NCBI RefSeq assembly: GCF_018408575.1
Contig: NZ_AP023418.1
Coordinates: forward strand, 2,260,415 to 2,324,414
DNA length: 64,000 bases
Reading direction: 5' to 3'
Origin: Vescimonas coprocola
GTDB lineage: Bacteria > Bacillota > Clostridia > Oscillospirales > Oscillospiraceae
The notes beneath the pieces are model-generated. The model had not been told where the DNA came from and ran no database searches. It saw only the letters and a list, made by a program, of their open reading frames with translations. The first letter of the stretch is position 1. Every line of letters begins with the position of its first letter. The position numbers and the translations under genes were made by a program. Shown here in pieces: positions 1,947 to 52,118 of the stretch.

Positions 1947-3302
1947 ATGGCAAAGATCACCCCCCGGACGCTGTCCGGCTTTATGGAGCTGCTGCCCGCC
2001 CCGCAGCAGCAGCTGGAGCGGATGATGGACATCCTCCGCAAGACCTACGCTCTCTACGGCTTCACGCCGCTGGATACCCCCGTCATCGAGGCCAGCGAGG
2101 TGCTGCTGGCCAAGGGCGGCGGCGAGACGGAGAAGCAAATTTACCGCTTCCAGAAGGGCGACGCCGATCTGGCCCTGCGGTTTGACCTGACGGTGCCGCT
2201 GGCCAAGTATGTGGCCCTCCACGGCGGCGACCTGTCCTTCCCCTTCCGCCGGTATCAGATCGGTAAGGTGTACCGGGGGGAGCGGGCCCAGCGGGGCCGG
2301 TTCCGGGAGTTCTATCAGGCGGACATCGACATCATCGGAGACGGCAAGCTGGATATCGCCAATGAGGCGGAGATCCCTTCCATCATCTACCAGACCTTCA
2401 CCCGGCTGGGGCTGAAGCGGTTCCAGATCCGGGTCAACAACCGGAAGATCCTCAACGGCTTTTATGCCATGCTGGGGCTGACAGAGCAGTCCGGCGACAT
2501 CATGCGCACCGTGGACAAGTTGGATAAGATCGGCCCCGACAAGGTCCGGGGGCTTCTCACCGGGGAGCTGGGTCTCACCGAGGAGGCCGCCGGGGATATC
2601 CTGCGTTTCATCGCCATCACCGGCTCCAATCAGGAGGTGCTGACGGCGCTGGAGGGCTATCGGGGCCGCAATGAGGTGTTCGACGCCGGCCTTACCGAGC
2701 TGGAGACGGTGGTGAAGTATCTGGCGGCCTTCGGCGTACCGGAGGAGAACTTCGCCGTGGACCTGACCATCGCCCGTGGGCTTGACTACTACACCGGCAC
2801 GGTGTACGAAACCACCCTGTTGGATCATCCGGAGATCGGCTCCGTCTGCTCCGGTGGACGGTACGACAATCTGGCGGAGTACTACACCGACCGGCAGCTG
2901 CCCGGCGTGGGCATCTCCATCGGCCTGACGAGACTGTTCTACGTGCTGGGCGAGCAAGGGATGCTGAATCCCCAGCTGCCCACGGCCCCGGCGGACGTGC
3001 TGATCCTGCCCATGACGGCGGAGCTGACCCCCGCCATCCAGCTGTCCACCCGGCTGCGGGCAGCCGGAGTGCGGACCCAGCTCTACACCGAGCAGAAGAA
3101 GTTCAAGGCCAAGATGAACTATGCCGACAAGATCGGCGTCCCCTATGTGGTGTTTCTGGGAGACGACGAGGTCAGCGCCGGGGTGGTGGCCTGCAAGGAT
3201 ATGGTTTCCGGCGAGCAGACCACACTGCCCTTCGACGAGACCCTCCAGCGCATCCGGGAGGGGCTGGCCCTCCGGGAGCAGGGCAGCGTTATCGTGGAAT
3301 AA
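1947..3302 (+). CDS. hisS: Histidyl-tRNA synthetase
   Basis: 451-residue class II synthetase that charges tRNA-His. Motif 2 is visible in GKVYRGERAQRGRFREF; the histidine-specific segment ARGLDYYTGTVYE lies mid-protein and motif 3 reads GVGISIGLTRL. A C-terminal anticodon-binding domain follows from about residue 350. The ATG at 1947 is favoured over that at 1941 because AAAGGAG lies seven bases upstream. It is transcribed from the T-box leader and followed by aspS after 75 bp with no terminator between, so both enzymes share the switch. Confidence 0.95.
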   Translation: MAKITPRTLSGFMELLPAPQQQLERMMDILRKTYALYGFTPLDTPVIEASEVLLAKGGGETEKQIYRFQKGDADLALRFDLTVPLAKYVALHGGDLSFPFRRYQIGKVYRGERAQRGRFREFYQADIDIIGDGKLDIANEAEIPSIIYQTFTRLGLKRFQIRVNNRKILNGFYAMLGLTEQSGDIMRTVDKLDKIGPDKVRGLLTGELGLTEEAAGDILRFIAITGSNQEVLTALEGYRGRNEVFDAGLTELETVVKYLAAFGVPEENFAVDLTIARGLDYYTGTVYETTLLDHPEIGSVCSGGRYDNLAEYYTDRQLPGVGISIGLTRLFYVLGEQGMLNPQLPTAPADVLILPMTAELTPAIQLSTRLRAAGVRTQLYTEQKKFKAKMNYADKIGVPYVVFLGDDEVSAGVVACKDMVSGEQTTLPFDETLQRIREGLALREQGSVIVE

Positions 3303-44314: not shown

Positions 44315-44590
44315 AATATGCATATCTGCGAGGATGGGGACAGTAGCCCGTCCCTCCGATGCCAAGAGAGCCGCCGTATGGTGCAAGGCGGACACGGAGG
44401 ACAGCGGTGAAGATCACCCCGGAGCATCCGGCTGAACCGGCAGTAAGCCCGGACGGCAGAGGGCCGTTATCTTCCCTTCCCCCCACGGCTCGTGGGGCAG
44501 AGCGGCCGCACCCGGTGCGGCAACAAGAGTGGTACCGCAGAGGTTTCTTAGTGGCCTTTGTCTCTTACGGAGACAAGGGCCATTTTTTTG
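44315..44590 (+). promoter_or_regulatory. T-box leader of ileS
   Basis: AGTAG near 44343 and GTGAAG followed by codon ATC near 44407-44415 form the specifier loop, reading Ile. The core GAGTGGTACCGCAG lies at 44527-44540; its TGGT fits discriminator A73 of tRNA-Ile. A terminator hairpin GGCCTTTGTCTC/GAGACAAGGGCC with seven T ends the leader at 44588. Confidence 0.92.
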
Positions 44591-48609: not shown

Positions 48610-49362
48610 TTATCTTATATATCTTTTATTTACATTTAAAATTAGTATTGATACTATTATTGTTACAATTAAAGTTATACAACAACTTAACAAACTATAA
48701 TTAAATACAAATATTGCAGATAAGCCATTTATTAAACAGTGAGTTAATATACAAGGAAATACACCTTTCGATACCTTTCTTATTGTTGCCAAAGCATAGC
48801 ATAAGGTTAAACACATTATTCCAAAAAGAAAATAGTTCATATTTGCATTTGCTGTTCCTATTATGAAAAATATTGGTAAATGCCATAACCACCAAATAAT
48901 AGAAGTAAAGATTGTTGCTATATGAAATCCAAATTTCTTTTCCAATTCAGGTTGTAAAATCATTCTCCATCCAACTTCTTCATTTCCACCACCAAATAAC
49001 ATCATTGGTAAAATTACTATAAGCATAAATATAGGAGCACCAAATTCAAATCCATTTATTGCACACCCCAAAACATAATAAATCAATACAAATAAAATTA
49101 CTAAAACATAAGTCCAAATATTATGTTTTATATCAAATATCTTTTTTAACCATTCTTTTAAATTCTTAACTTTGTTATTTCTCTTTAGTGATATATAAGA
49201 GGCAATAGTTGGAGAAAATCCCCCAATAATGTGCATAATCCTTAAAAATATATTATTTATTGTCAAGATAAATATTTGACTAATTAAAGCACAACCACCC
49301 CAAAATATTAGCATTATAACAAATGTTATTATTAAAAATTCTTTCACTAATTTTTTATTCAT
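48610..49362 (-). CDS. CPBP family intramembrane metalloprotease
   Basis: 250 residues, strongly hydrophobic with about eight membrane segments. The CPBP (Abi/CAAX-like) motifs are visible: EEVGWR (EExxxR), WHLPIF, and a His in THCLINGLSAI. The family includes proteases linked to bacteriocin self-immunity and CAAX processing. The gene is strikingly AT-rich (runs of A and T in nearly every codon third position), unlike all neighbours, so recent transfer from a low-G+C Firmicute is likely. AGGAGTATTT lies before the ATG. Confidence 0.85.
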   Translation of the reverse strand: MNKKLVKEFLIITFVIMLIFWGGCALISQIFILTINNIFLRIMHIIGGFSPTIASYISLKRNNKVKNLKEWLKKIFDIKHNIWTYVLVILFVLIYYVLGCAINGFEFGAPIFMLIVILPMMLFGGGNEEVGWRMILQPELEKKFGFHIATIFTSIIWWLWHLPIFFIIGTANANMNYFLFGIMCLTLCYALATIRKVSKGVFPCILTHCLINGLSAIFVFNYSLLSCCITLIVTIIVSILILNVNKRYIR

Positions 49363-49404
49363 AAATACTCCTATCATCTCCACAAATTCCGATTTGTCAC
49401 CCCC

Positions 49405-49437: not shown

Positions 49438-49486
49438 GCAAATCACAGCGGCAACGCAGATGTCCCGCATTGCCGCTGTGATTTGC
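49438..49486. other. Long perfect hairpin in the island
   Basis: GCAAATCACAGCGGCAA pairs with TTGCCGCTGTGATTTGC around a 15-base loop. No T run follows on either strand. A second hairpin, CCACCAAA.../...TTTGGTGG, lies at about 49516-49553. Confidence 0.65.
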
Positions 49487-49595
49487 CTTCTTATTAGATT
49501 TGGATCGGCTGATCCACCAAAACACAGGAAGCGAGTCCTGCGCTTTGGTGGTCGCATTTAACTCGATCTCATCCCCCAAATGCGTAAAAGGAAAT

Positions 49596-49842
49596 CAACA
49601 GGCGTTCGGTTGCTGACCGAACTCATAGGAATCTTACCTCTGCCGGGTACTCCGCCAGCCCCATAGGGAAGTATCATTGTCCCTGAATCGTTTCATCGCC
49701 TTATCCGTAGCAAGCGGATATTTCAGAATGGTTCGGAATCGCTACCAACCTTGCTTTCCGTGATGACCCTTTCGGGCAGGAAGTTCGTGGCGCACCTTCA
49801 TTCGGCTGGGGCTTTCACCCCCGATCAGGAATGTACCTGTTG
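49596..49842 (-). ncRNA. Candidate structured RNA of unknown class
   Basis: No protein frame fits this ~250-nt segment but it is rich in pairing. Read on the minus strand it opens CAACAGG and closes with CCTGTTG, a seven-base-pair closing helix. Inside are GGGGG-TGAAAG-CCCC, CCCGAAAGGG, ATCCG-CTTGCTA-CGGAT and GTTCGGT-CAGCA-ACCGAAC. Orientation is uncertain; minus is chosen because the loops GAAA and TGAAAG then look RNA-like. A standalone HEARO/omega-RNA-type element, or an intron remnant, are guesses. No nuclease ORF is next to it. Confidence 0.45.
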
Positions 49843-49971
49843 AATGTGTATTCTGTTTTCAAGGTTCGTGAGGTTTTTGTCCCTCAATACTTAATTGGGA
49901 AAATTTCGAGCCAAAATAAAAAGATTTTTCAAAATATTCTTTTGAAAATTTTCTCGCCTCCTCACAAGAAC

Positions 49972-50049
49972 AAAAAAGCCCCTATCACATCACAAAGATG
50001 TAATAGGGGCAGAAACAGAAAAAGCCCGCTGACCGAAATCAGCGGGCTT
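49972..50049 (-). terminator. Two tandem terminators downstream of lysS
   Basis: On the minus strand AAGCCCGCTGATTTCGGTCA with GCGGGCTTTTTC (50019-50049), then GCCCCTATTACATC with GATGTGATAGGGGCTTTTTT (49972-50010). Both end in T runs and would stop transcripts coming from lysS or its tail. Between 49843 and 49971 I see only AT-rich non-coding sequence with the inverted pair TTTTCAAAATATTC/GAATATTTTGAAAA-like at 49926-49951. Confidence 0.8.
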
Positions 50050-50067
50050 AAATCATATGAACTTAAC

Positions 50068-50177
50068 TTATGCTATCGGAACTTGCCTGCAATCGCAAAA
50101 TTTCAATCGCATTTTTGGCGTAAGTGAGGCGTAAATTGGCGTAAGTTGTGGCGTAAGCACCGACAATTTAAGGTCAA
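50068..50177 (-). pseudogene. Possible C-terminal remnant of a tyrosine integrase
   Basis: Directly after the lysS stop a minus-strand frame reads LSVLTPQLTPIYASLTPKMR and ends RQVPIA before TAA at 50068. The DNA has the unit CTTACGCCA repeated about four times. Such LTP/FTP-repeat tails occur at the ends of some Firmicute phage and conjugative-element integrases (recalled, not searched). If correct, an element once integrated at the 3' end of lysS. It could also be meaningless repeat sequence. Confidence 0.3.
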
Positions 50178-52118
50178 TCAATAGAGCTTTGCGCCGGCGG
50201 GGATGTGGGGATCAACCATCAGCAAATGGAGCTTTTCCTCGCCGTTTTCGTGATGCACGGCGGAGATCAGCATACCGCAAGAGTCAATGCCCATCATCGC
50301 TCTCGGAGGCAGATTGGTGATTGCAATGCAGGTCTTACCGACCAGTTCTTCCGGCTCATAATATTCGTGAATACCACTCAAAATGACCCTATCTACGCCG
50401 GTTCCGTCGTCCAGAACGAACTTTAAGAGCTTTTTGGACTTCTTCACGGCTTCGCATTCCTTAACCTTCACGGCACGGAAATCGCTCTTGGAGAAGGTGT
50501 CAAAATCCACCTGATCCTGGAACAACGGCTCGATCTCCACATTGGAAAAATCGATTTTTTCCTCCACAACCGGAGCCGCCTGAGCAGCCTCCGCAGGAGC
50601 CGAAACTTCCTTGGAACCCTTCTTGTCAGCGTCCAACGGCTTCATTGTCGGGAACAGGATCACGTCCCGGATAGAGTCGGTGCCGCAGAGCATCATGGCG
50701 CAGCGGTCGATGCCGAAGCCCAGACCGCCGGTGGGGGGCATACCGTACTCCAGCGCCAGCACGAAGTCCTCGTCCATCATGTCGGCCTCCTCGTCGCCAT
50801 TGGCCCGCTTCTCCGCCTGAGCCTTGAAGCGCTGGTGCTGGTCGATGGGGTCGTTGAGCTCGGAGAAGGCATTGCCCATCTCGCAGCCGCAGACGAACAT
50901 CTCATACCGCTCCGTCAGATGGGGATCCTCCGGGCTGCGCTTGGCCAGCGGACTCACCTCCACCGGGTACATGGTGATGAAGGTGGGCTGAATGAGCGTC
51001 TCCTCCACCTTCTGGTCGAAGGTCTCGTACAGGGCGTTGCCCCACTTCCGGGCCACGCCCTCCATGTCCACGCCTACGCTCTTGGCCAGCTCCACGGCGG
51101 CGTCATCATCGCCCTCAATGGCCATGAAGTCGGCGCCGGTGACATTCTGCACGGCATCGGCCATGGTGATGCGCTTCCAGCTGGGGGTCAGATCCACGTC
51201 GTGGCCCAGCCACTGGATGTGGTAGGTGCCGAGGATCTCCTTGGCGGCTCCGGTGAGGATGCCCTCCAGGATATCCATCATGCCGTCCAGATTGGTGTAG
51301 GCCTGATACAGCTCACAGGTGGTGAACTCCGGGTTGTGCTTGGTGTCCATGCCCTCGTTGCGGAAGATGCGGCCCACCTCGTATACCCGCTCCAGACCGC
51401 CCACGATGAGCCGCTTCAGGTGCAGCTCCGTGGCGATCCGCATATACATATCGATATCCTGAGCATTGTGGTGGGTGATGAAGGGCCGGGCGTTGGCGCC
51501 GCCGGCAATGGGGCTGAGCACGGGGGTCTCCACCTCCATGAAGCCCATATTGTCCAGATACCGGCGCAGATACGCTACGAACTTGCTGCGGATCTCAAAG
51601 TTCCGCTGGGATTCGGGATTCATAATGAGATCCACATACCGCTGGCGGTAGCGCAGCTCCTTGTCCGTCAGACCGTGGAACTTCTCCGGCAGGGGCTGGA
51701 GGGACTTCGACAGCAGGGTGATCTCATGGGCCCGGATGCTCATCTCGCCCTTCTGGGTGCGGAACACGTCGCCCTTGACGCCTACGATATCACCGATGTC
51801 ATATTTCCTGAAGCGGTCATAGGCCTCCTCGTCCATCTCATCCTTCCGGGCGTAGATCTGGATGCGGCCGGACTTATCCTTCAGATCGCAGAAGGACACC
51901 TTGCCCATGCCCCGCTTGCTCATAAGACGGCCCGCCAGAGAGACGGTCTGTCCCTCCAGCTGGTCGAACTGATCCTTGACCTCCTGTGCGTGATGGGTCA
52001 CGTCATAGCGGGTGATCTCGAAGGGGTTCATACCCGCCTCCTGCAGGGCTGCCAGCTTATCCCGGCGGATCTGGAGAATTTCCCGCAGGTCCTGTTGATT
52101 CTGATTCTGCTGTGCCAT
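50178..52118 (-). CDS. lysS: Lysyl-tRNA synthetase with C-terminal tRNA-binding (Trbp111-like) domain
   Basis: 646 residues; ordinary class II LysRS ends near 500. The OB-fold anticodon domain (GRLMSKRGMGKVSFCDL) is followed by the catalytic core with motif 2 VYEVGRIFRNEGMDTKHNPEF and motif 3 GLGFGIDRCAMML. After an Ala/Pro/Glu linker, about residues 530-646 form a MetRS-beta/Trbp111-like OB domain: FSKSDFRAVKVKECEAVKKS, then TCIAITNLPPRAMMGIDSCGM. The extension uses visibly more A/T-ending codons than the core. It lies 13 bp after greA. Confidence 0.93.
   Translation of the reverse strand: MAQQNQNQQDLREILQIRRDKLAALQEAGMNPFEITRYDVTHHAQEVKDQFDQLEGQTVSLAGRLMSKRGMGKVSFCDLKDKSGRIQIYARKDEMDEEAYDRFRKYDIGDIVGVKGDVFRTQKGEMSIRAHEITLLSKSLQPLPEKFHGLTDKELRYRQRYVDLIMNPESQRNFEIRSKFVAYLRRYLDNMGFMEVETPVLSPIAGGANARPFITHHNAQDIDMYMRIATELHLKRLIVGGLERVYEVGRIFRNEGMDTKHNPEFTTCELYQAYTNLDGMMDILEGILTGAAKEILGTYHIQWLGHDVDLTPSWKRITMADAVQNVTGADFMAIEGDDDAAVELAKSVGVDMEGVARKWGNALYETFDQKVEETLIQPTFITMYPVEVSPLAKRSPEDPHLTERYEMFVCGCEMGNAFSELNDPIDQHQRFKAQAEKRANGDEEADMMDEDFVLALEYGMPPTGGLGFGIDRCAMMLCGTDSIRDVILFPTMKPLDADKKGSKEVSAPAEAAQAAPVVEEKIDFSNVEIEPLFQDQVDFDTFSKSDFRAVKVKECEAVKKSKKLLKFVLDDGTGVDRVILSGIHEYYEPEELVGKTCIAITNLPPRAMMGIDSCGMLISAVHHENGEEKLHLLMVDPHIPAGAKLY

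Follow-up and report, generated by a model that had tools for sequence, protein, structure and literature searches.

The system against which this locus can best be compared is canT of Tn916, which lies 126-577 bp downstream of orf8 and was described by Wirachman and Grossman as a cis-acting, orientation-specific processive antiterminator (PMC11658703). canT most likely acts as RNA, and it acts on distant and heterologous terminators. A 162-bp deletion (nt 229-390) lowered conjugation about 100-fold and reporter read-through to less than 5%, and losses of the same size, about 100-fold and to less than 5%, were reported for canT(S3), in which TGC replaces ATA, starting at nt 283 downstream of orf8 (PMC11658703). 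When S3 was placed in a 400-bp canT fragment it had little effect, which its authors leave unexplained, and the structure work described there is single-sequence folding (PMC11658703). The terms pemK, Rfam, NusB, boxA and Tn1549 do not occur in the main text of that paper. The elements conAn of pLS20, EAR of Bacillus and put of phage HK022 are expected to share one mode of action with the RNAs considered here, in which the nascent RNA causes the polymerase to ignore terminators (PMC11658703, PMC8955417); conAn requires a protein as well. The RNA family to which our locus belongs is RF02913 of Rfam, named pemK. Its database structures are listed without covarying pairs in the text of PMC7657543, and it was used as a test family in PMC11507696. 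By title or abstract, no link of RF02913 with canT or antitermination was found in the literature searched, a scope that leaves most subscription papers outside, and the connection between pemK and canT is apparently unreported.

A member of this family was found on the minus strand of the 64-kb stretch of DNA analysed here (the window), where a structured non-coding RNA of about 255 nt occupies positions 49848-49594. The Rfam scan of the whole window gave two matches over the gathering score, one of which is RF02913 at 49680-49623 on the minus strand (model positions 1-61, 65.5 bits against a gathering score of 34.8), and this match forms the 3' half of the RNA. The folding energy of the minus strand was modestly better than that of shuffled sequences (z -2.06, with 6 of 200 shuffles equally good), and the window's list of open reading frames contains none of at least 60 aa inside the RNA. 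Together with the strand of the RF02913 match, these results place the structured RNA on the minus strand. A plus-strand reading was discarded since its fold is at the level of shuffled sequence (z -0.78, 44 of 200 shuffles equally good) and the homology lies on the minus strand. An earlier note on this DNA had proposed a structured non-coding RNA of about 250 nt without coding potential, and this proposal is borne out by the RF02913 match, by the match to a full-length model (R1, below), by covariation and by the lack of such a reading frame; its suggestion of a new RNA class was dropped because RF02913 matches above its gathering score. The window also carries a T-box leader (RF00230, 100.5 bits) at 44322-44568, upstream of ileS.

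The RNA is closed by helix P1, in which TCAACAGGT (49835-49843) pairs with GCCTGTTGA (49595-49603), and which contains the CAACAGG/CCTGTTG closing helix recognized in the earlier note; the several internal stems predicted there are present too. P2 lies next inside, with CCTGATC (49823-49829) as its 5' strand and GATTCAGG (49682-49689) as its 3' strand, the latter ending just before the pemK core. Located between the two strands of P2 are the P3 hairpin (49808-49822), P4, a variable P5 and the P6 hairpin TATCCG..CGGATA (49702-49720), and our alignments of the copies show a conserved strand, GGTGCGCCACGA, at 49785-49796. The RF02913 core (49623-49680) comprises ACAATGATACTTC and three short stems, and its leading motif, also written AAUGAUAC, is present in the window copy at 49680-49668. 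The core is followed by the P9 hairpin GTTCGG..CCGAAC (49604-49622) and then by the 3' strand of P1. All of these features are on the minus strand, as are a boxA-like motif upstream of the RNA (ACCTTGAAAACAGAATA, 49850-49866, with 15 of 17 matches to TCCTTGAAAACTGAATA) and a further hairpin, P10, on its 3' side (CGCATTT-GGGGGATGAGATCGAGTT-AAATGCG, 49553-49584). The core was observed to be nearly invariant, each base of AATGATACT being conserved in 52-59 of the 60 copies. One copy (L020) is without the AAUGAUACUUC core and is probably inactive.

The alignments of the copies run from the boxA-like motif upstream of the RNA to a point past the core. When 14 copies were aligned by plain MAFFT and scored on the structure of the window copy, covariation was 0.394 compared with 0.171 ± 0.016 in shuffles, where none of 500 was as high, and with at most 0.162 when the pairing partners were slid; 33 of the 47 pairs were changed on both sides. 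A covariance model, R1, with 232 positions and 47 pairs was trained on 12 copies, including that of the window and excluding Tn916 and the Tn1549-type element. When 58 distinct copies were fitted to R1, in an alignment that leans to the structure, covariation was 0.680 against 0.176 ± 0.007 in the control, 86.0% of the cells could pair and 46 of 47 pairs had double changes; in this same alignment P1 was changed on both sides in nine out of nine pairs, with 96.2% of its cells paired. Double changes were likewise found in all six pairs of P6 (94.5% of cells paired) and all six of P9, and P2 and P3 occur in both covariation alignments. Compensatory changes are present in every helix, and the structured RNA thus survives the earlier note's reservation that the homologs might lack such changes or align as decayed genes. 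A full-length MAFFT alignment retained 36 of 47 copies after near-duplicates were removed, 12 of 59 having been dropped earlier because they had no clear boxA or were cut. When helices were searched for crudely, with the anchors left free, P1 exceeded the 95% level of mixed partners in only 24 of 48 copies because the anchors were wrong in some of them, while an anchored search, from which five copies without an anchor were dropped, beat 95% of mixed partners in 19 (P1), 18 (P2) and 11 (P9) of 31 copies. Both searches are superseded by the model-based count.

In the 64-kb window R1 has a single match, the copy at 49848-49594 on the minus strand (model positions 1-232, 218.4 bits, E 6.9e-62). 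It matches all 60 sources and spans positions 1-232 in 59, the remaining one being cut by a contig end. Twelve of these sources served to train R1, and every source except L030, L079 and L080 was selected by its RF02913 match, so the independent part of this result is the extension to full length. R1 also matches all four of the additional copies taken from beyond the order (L116-L119). The 61-nt motif modelled by Rfam therefore extends to a multibranched RNA of about 255 nt with overwhelming covariation, preceded by boxA and often followed by P10.

The family includes canT itself. RF02913 matches Tn916 (L079) at 3038-3138 with 55.0 bits and a vanB element (L080) with 57.8 bits, and in both it is located between sigma/HTH genes and xis/int. 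From its vanB setting we take L080 to be a Tn1549-type element. R1 aligns end to end (1-232) with Tn916 canT at 64.3 bits (E 2.8e-18) and end to end with L080 at 93.6 bits (E 8.4e-27). Helices P1 (AGTAATCGAAT/GTTCGATTGCT) and P2 (CGATAAGAA/TTCTTATCG) of Tn916 are fully paired, with sequences unlike those of the window. The stop codon of orf8, an HTH gene, is at L079 position 2755, which places the S3 mutation at 3038-3040; the RF02913 match opens with exactly these three bases, which read ATA. The 162-bp inactivating deletion corresponds to L079 2984-3145 and removes the whole core. The S3-site core is present in the window copy, where the RF02913 and R1 alignments put the equivalent sites at 49678-49680 with ACA in place of AUA, and C was observed at the variable S3-equivalent site in 15 of 60 copies. 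The full-length structure, the core sequence, the boxA-like motif and a setting in integrative/conjugative elements (ICEs) are common to canT and the family of the window RNA. The canT core differs in being about 43 nt longer, P10 is absent from Tn916, and canT lies between orf8 and xis/int whereas the window copy follows lysS without ICE genes. Tn916 also contains an RF03532 (SQ2397) RNA at L079 1589-1818, and a match to this family below the gathering score was seen at 1623-1776 of L080.

Upstream of the RNA, TCCTTGAAAACTGAATA was matched at 13 or more of its 17 positions in 41 of 59 loci (L030 being left out), compared with 8 of 359 control windows of equal length. In the host genome TCTTGAAAACTGAA occurs 386-387 nt after the 3' end of 16S rRNA, i.e. 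in the spacer before 23S, in three of three rRNA operons, one of which was checked in sequence. We take this boxA-type motif to be a NusB/S10 antitermination site. The active 452-bp canT fragment begins at L079 position 2881, inside the boxA at 2876-2894, and an intact boxA therefore appears to be dispensable in the canT reporter. No recognisable promoter was seen by eye upstream of boxA in 33 copies. On the 3' side of P1, the P10 hairpin consists of a variable paired stem around a constant inside (GGGGUGUCGUGGACAAAUA and variants), and hairpins of this type follow 37 of 60 copies compared with 6 of 1293 control windows. Three other loci of one genome (L082, L090 and L091, on contig C1 of G000 near 682-685 kb and 728 kb) have boxA-like motifs without an RF02913 or R1 match; two of these motifs precede GACCGTCCG, and the three loci are perhaps another boxA-linked leader.

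Because canT is matched over its full length and S3 maps to the first three bases of the core, processive transcription antitermination is the most likely function of the RF02913 family, and we regard it as highly probable. Antitermination, action in cis and processivity were demonstrated in Tn916 canT; for the branch of the family to which the window copy belongs we infer antitermination, and any role of boxA, from the homology. In the proposed mechanism, boxA would emerge from the polymerase during transcription together with the multibranched RNA, in which the AUAAUGAUACU core is single-stranded, and the folded RNA would be expected to remain with the polymerase, either directly or together with Nus factors. 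A polymerase carrying the RNA should become resistant to intrinsic terminators further down, and owing to this resistance a long operon for recombination and conjugation could be transcribed only from the element's own start. An excess of terminators close downstream of the RNA was not borne out, since within 1.45 kb of the 60 copies 8 sense and 19 antisense terminators were counted. Across the co-directional runs of seven ICE stretches, counted in ICEs alone, 43 sense and 21 antisense terminator-like sites were found; two of these seven stretches contain relaxase and coupling-protein genes.

The copy in the window is located between lysS (50178-52118, minus strand) and a CPBP/Rce1-like protease gene (48610-49383, minus strand; PF02517, E 1.1e-12), and not at the position typical of canT, ahead of its operon within an ICE. 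Two intrinsic terminators are predicted between lysS and the RNA, at 49978-50010 and 50022-50049 on the minus strand. DNA comparison revealed that L030, a circular record of 247 kb from Subdoligranulum variabile that is catalogued as a plasmid, contains DNA 91.2% identical to window 49486-50579; over the last 400 bp of lysS, identity with the lysS fragment of L030 is about 91%. In L030, parA comes directly after a 3' fragment of lysS, the terminators and the RNA, and a gene that we named serine recombinase-like from its sequence lies upstream. We infer from this arrangement that L030 shows an element with lysS as its integration site, in excised form and with its two ends joined. The similarity of the window to L030 stops at 49486, about where parA begins in L030, and no element gene follows in the window; the copy therefore probably no longer serves an ICE, and it has the look of a remnant at an element scar from which the element's genes have disappeared. 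The mobile-island setting suggested in the earlier note is accordingly supported by the L030 DNA and by the homologs, but no integrase or conjugation gene adjoins the RNA in the window. An inverted repeat with 20-nt arms that are 95% complementary is found at 49438-49486, exactly where the L030 similarity ends. Four GGCGTAA repeats follow the lysS stop codon at 50118-50168 and are possibly recombinase binding repeats. Within the genus, the lysS genes of G003, G004, G006, G008, G009, G011, G014 and G015 align only to about residue 500, while those of the window, G018, G007, G013 and G002 have an extra C-terminal part of about 146 aa (window 50178-50700), and just this part is carried by L030, downstream of the serine recombinase-like gene. 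Elements appear to integrate at the 3' end of lysS and, in doing so, to swap or append the C-terminal domain of the protein.

These observations raise the alternative that the window copy is a dead relic, neither transcribed nor selected since the element was lost, to which we assign slightly less than an even chance; it is compatible with antitermination as the function of the family, and the two assessments do not exclude each other. No ICE genes adjoin the copy, the L030 similarity ends at the edge of the inverted repeat near the start of parA, and the interval from the lysS terminators to boxA revealed no sigma-70-like promoter. On the other hand, the conserved helices, the core and boxA are all intact. 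Between the window and L030 the RNA is 96.1% identical (10 of 255 sites differ) and boxA 100%, compared with 67.6% in the 108-nt spacer before boxA, and one pair of P9 carries a double change (49618 G to A, 49608 C to T). Because the RNA and boxA are far more alike than the spacer, and because this pair is compensated, the RNA is under constraint in this lineage.

Beyond the window, the antitermination reading has to be compared with that of a cis-regulatory leader, riboswitch-like or protein-binding, for the next gene, originally a PemK toxin gene. Rfam gives the family the type Cis-reg and the name pemK, and a PemK-family gene was found downstream of 9 of 60 copies. The examined stretches of the other 51 have no PemK, with recombinases, ParA/ParB and excisionases instead, and regulation of PemK was rejected as a general function. 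Among the 60 copies, 53 are followed by at least one of six protein clusters (recombinase, excisionase, ParA, ParB and PemK types), which were formed by single linkage and identified by Pfam from their representatives. In overlapping counts these are serine recombinase at 22 loci, ParA at 16, tyrosine integrase at 14, excisionase-like HTH at 11, ParB at 10 and PemK at 9. The seven copies without such clusters are those of the window, L021, L022, L051, L057, L061 and L071, the last with 7 nt of downstream sequence. In the two ParA-type elements examined, relaxase and coupling-protein genes are located downstream in the same direction. The genomic neighbourhoods indicate that the copies sit in ICEs, upstream of recombinase, excisionase and ParA/ParB genes and only sometimes of PemK genes. 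Such different downstream genes are expected of a polymerase-modifying element rather than of a gene-specific switch, and the best-studied homolog, canT, acts on distant and heterologous terminators according to the text of PMC11658703. A leader for the next gene is thus improbable.

A mobile-element guide RNA (HEARO/omega RNA) or intron (a group I or II remnant), for which the mobile setting and the suggestion of the earlier note are the only arguments, can be dismissed almost with certainty, since no such Rfam family matches and the homology to canT is full length. A permissive Rfam scan around the RNA gave 16 matches at E ≤ 5 among 4227 families, none of weight besides RF02913. RF02033 (HEARO) is not among these 16, and the scan that the earlier note had proposed thus identified RF02913 in its place; no intron family appeared in either scan, and the idea that GTGCGCC could mark a group II intron start found no support in the permissive one. 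EAR gave no match to the window RNA in the permissive scan, the Rfam scan being the extent of the sequence comparison with EAR, conAn and put. The consensus of the dinG RNA (RF03082) starts with AAUGAUACUUCcg, like the pemK core, and scores 20.9 bits in the window, below its gathering score of 46.9. R1 matches none of five dinG loci, so that dinG was rejected as a member of the same family; judged by its sequence, dinG may belong with pemK in one superfamily, as a second family.

RF02913 was detected in 16 of 60 related genomes, 94 of 295 of the order and 21 of 299 of the phylum, and in none of 14 well-known control genomes. The host genome has seven copies, all of which are recovered at full length by R1. 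Taking these results together, we consider it likely that the orphan pemK family represents a widespread class of processive antiterminators in mobile elements of Bacillota, of which canT is the one tested member. The class would have two placements, either before the recombination module, as in canT, or at the left end, ahead of parA and of the operon for conjugation, as in relatives of the window copy such as L010 and L030, often with P10. The boxA held in common with the rRNA operons of the host suggests that the ribosomal antitermination machinery may have been borrowed.

For the window itself the result is one of annotation, namely a family member at what looks like an element scar. More broadly, the link joins a common RNA family of unknown function to an experimentally proven antiterminator, and through canT the whole RF02913 family gains a testable function, while canT gains a conserved secondary structure. 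It would also offer a route to the control RNAs of conjugative elements across gut Bacillota, including the resistance carriers of the Tn916 and Tn1549 types.
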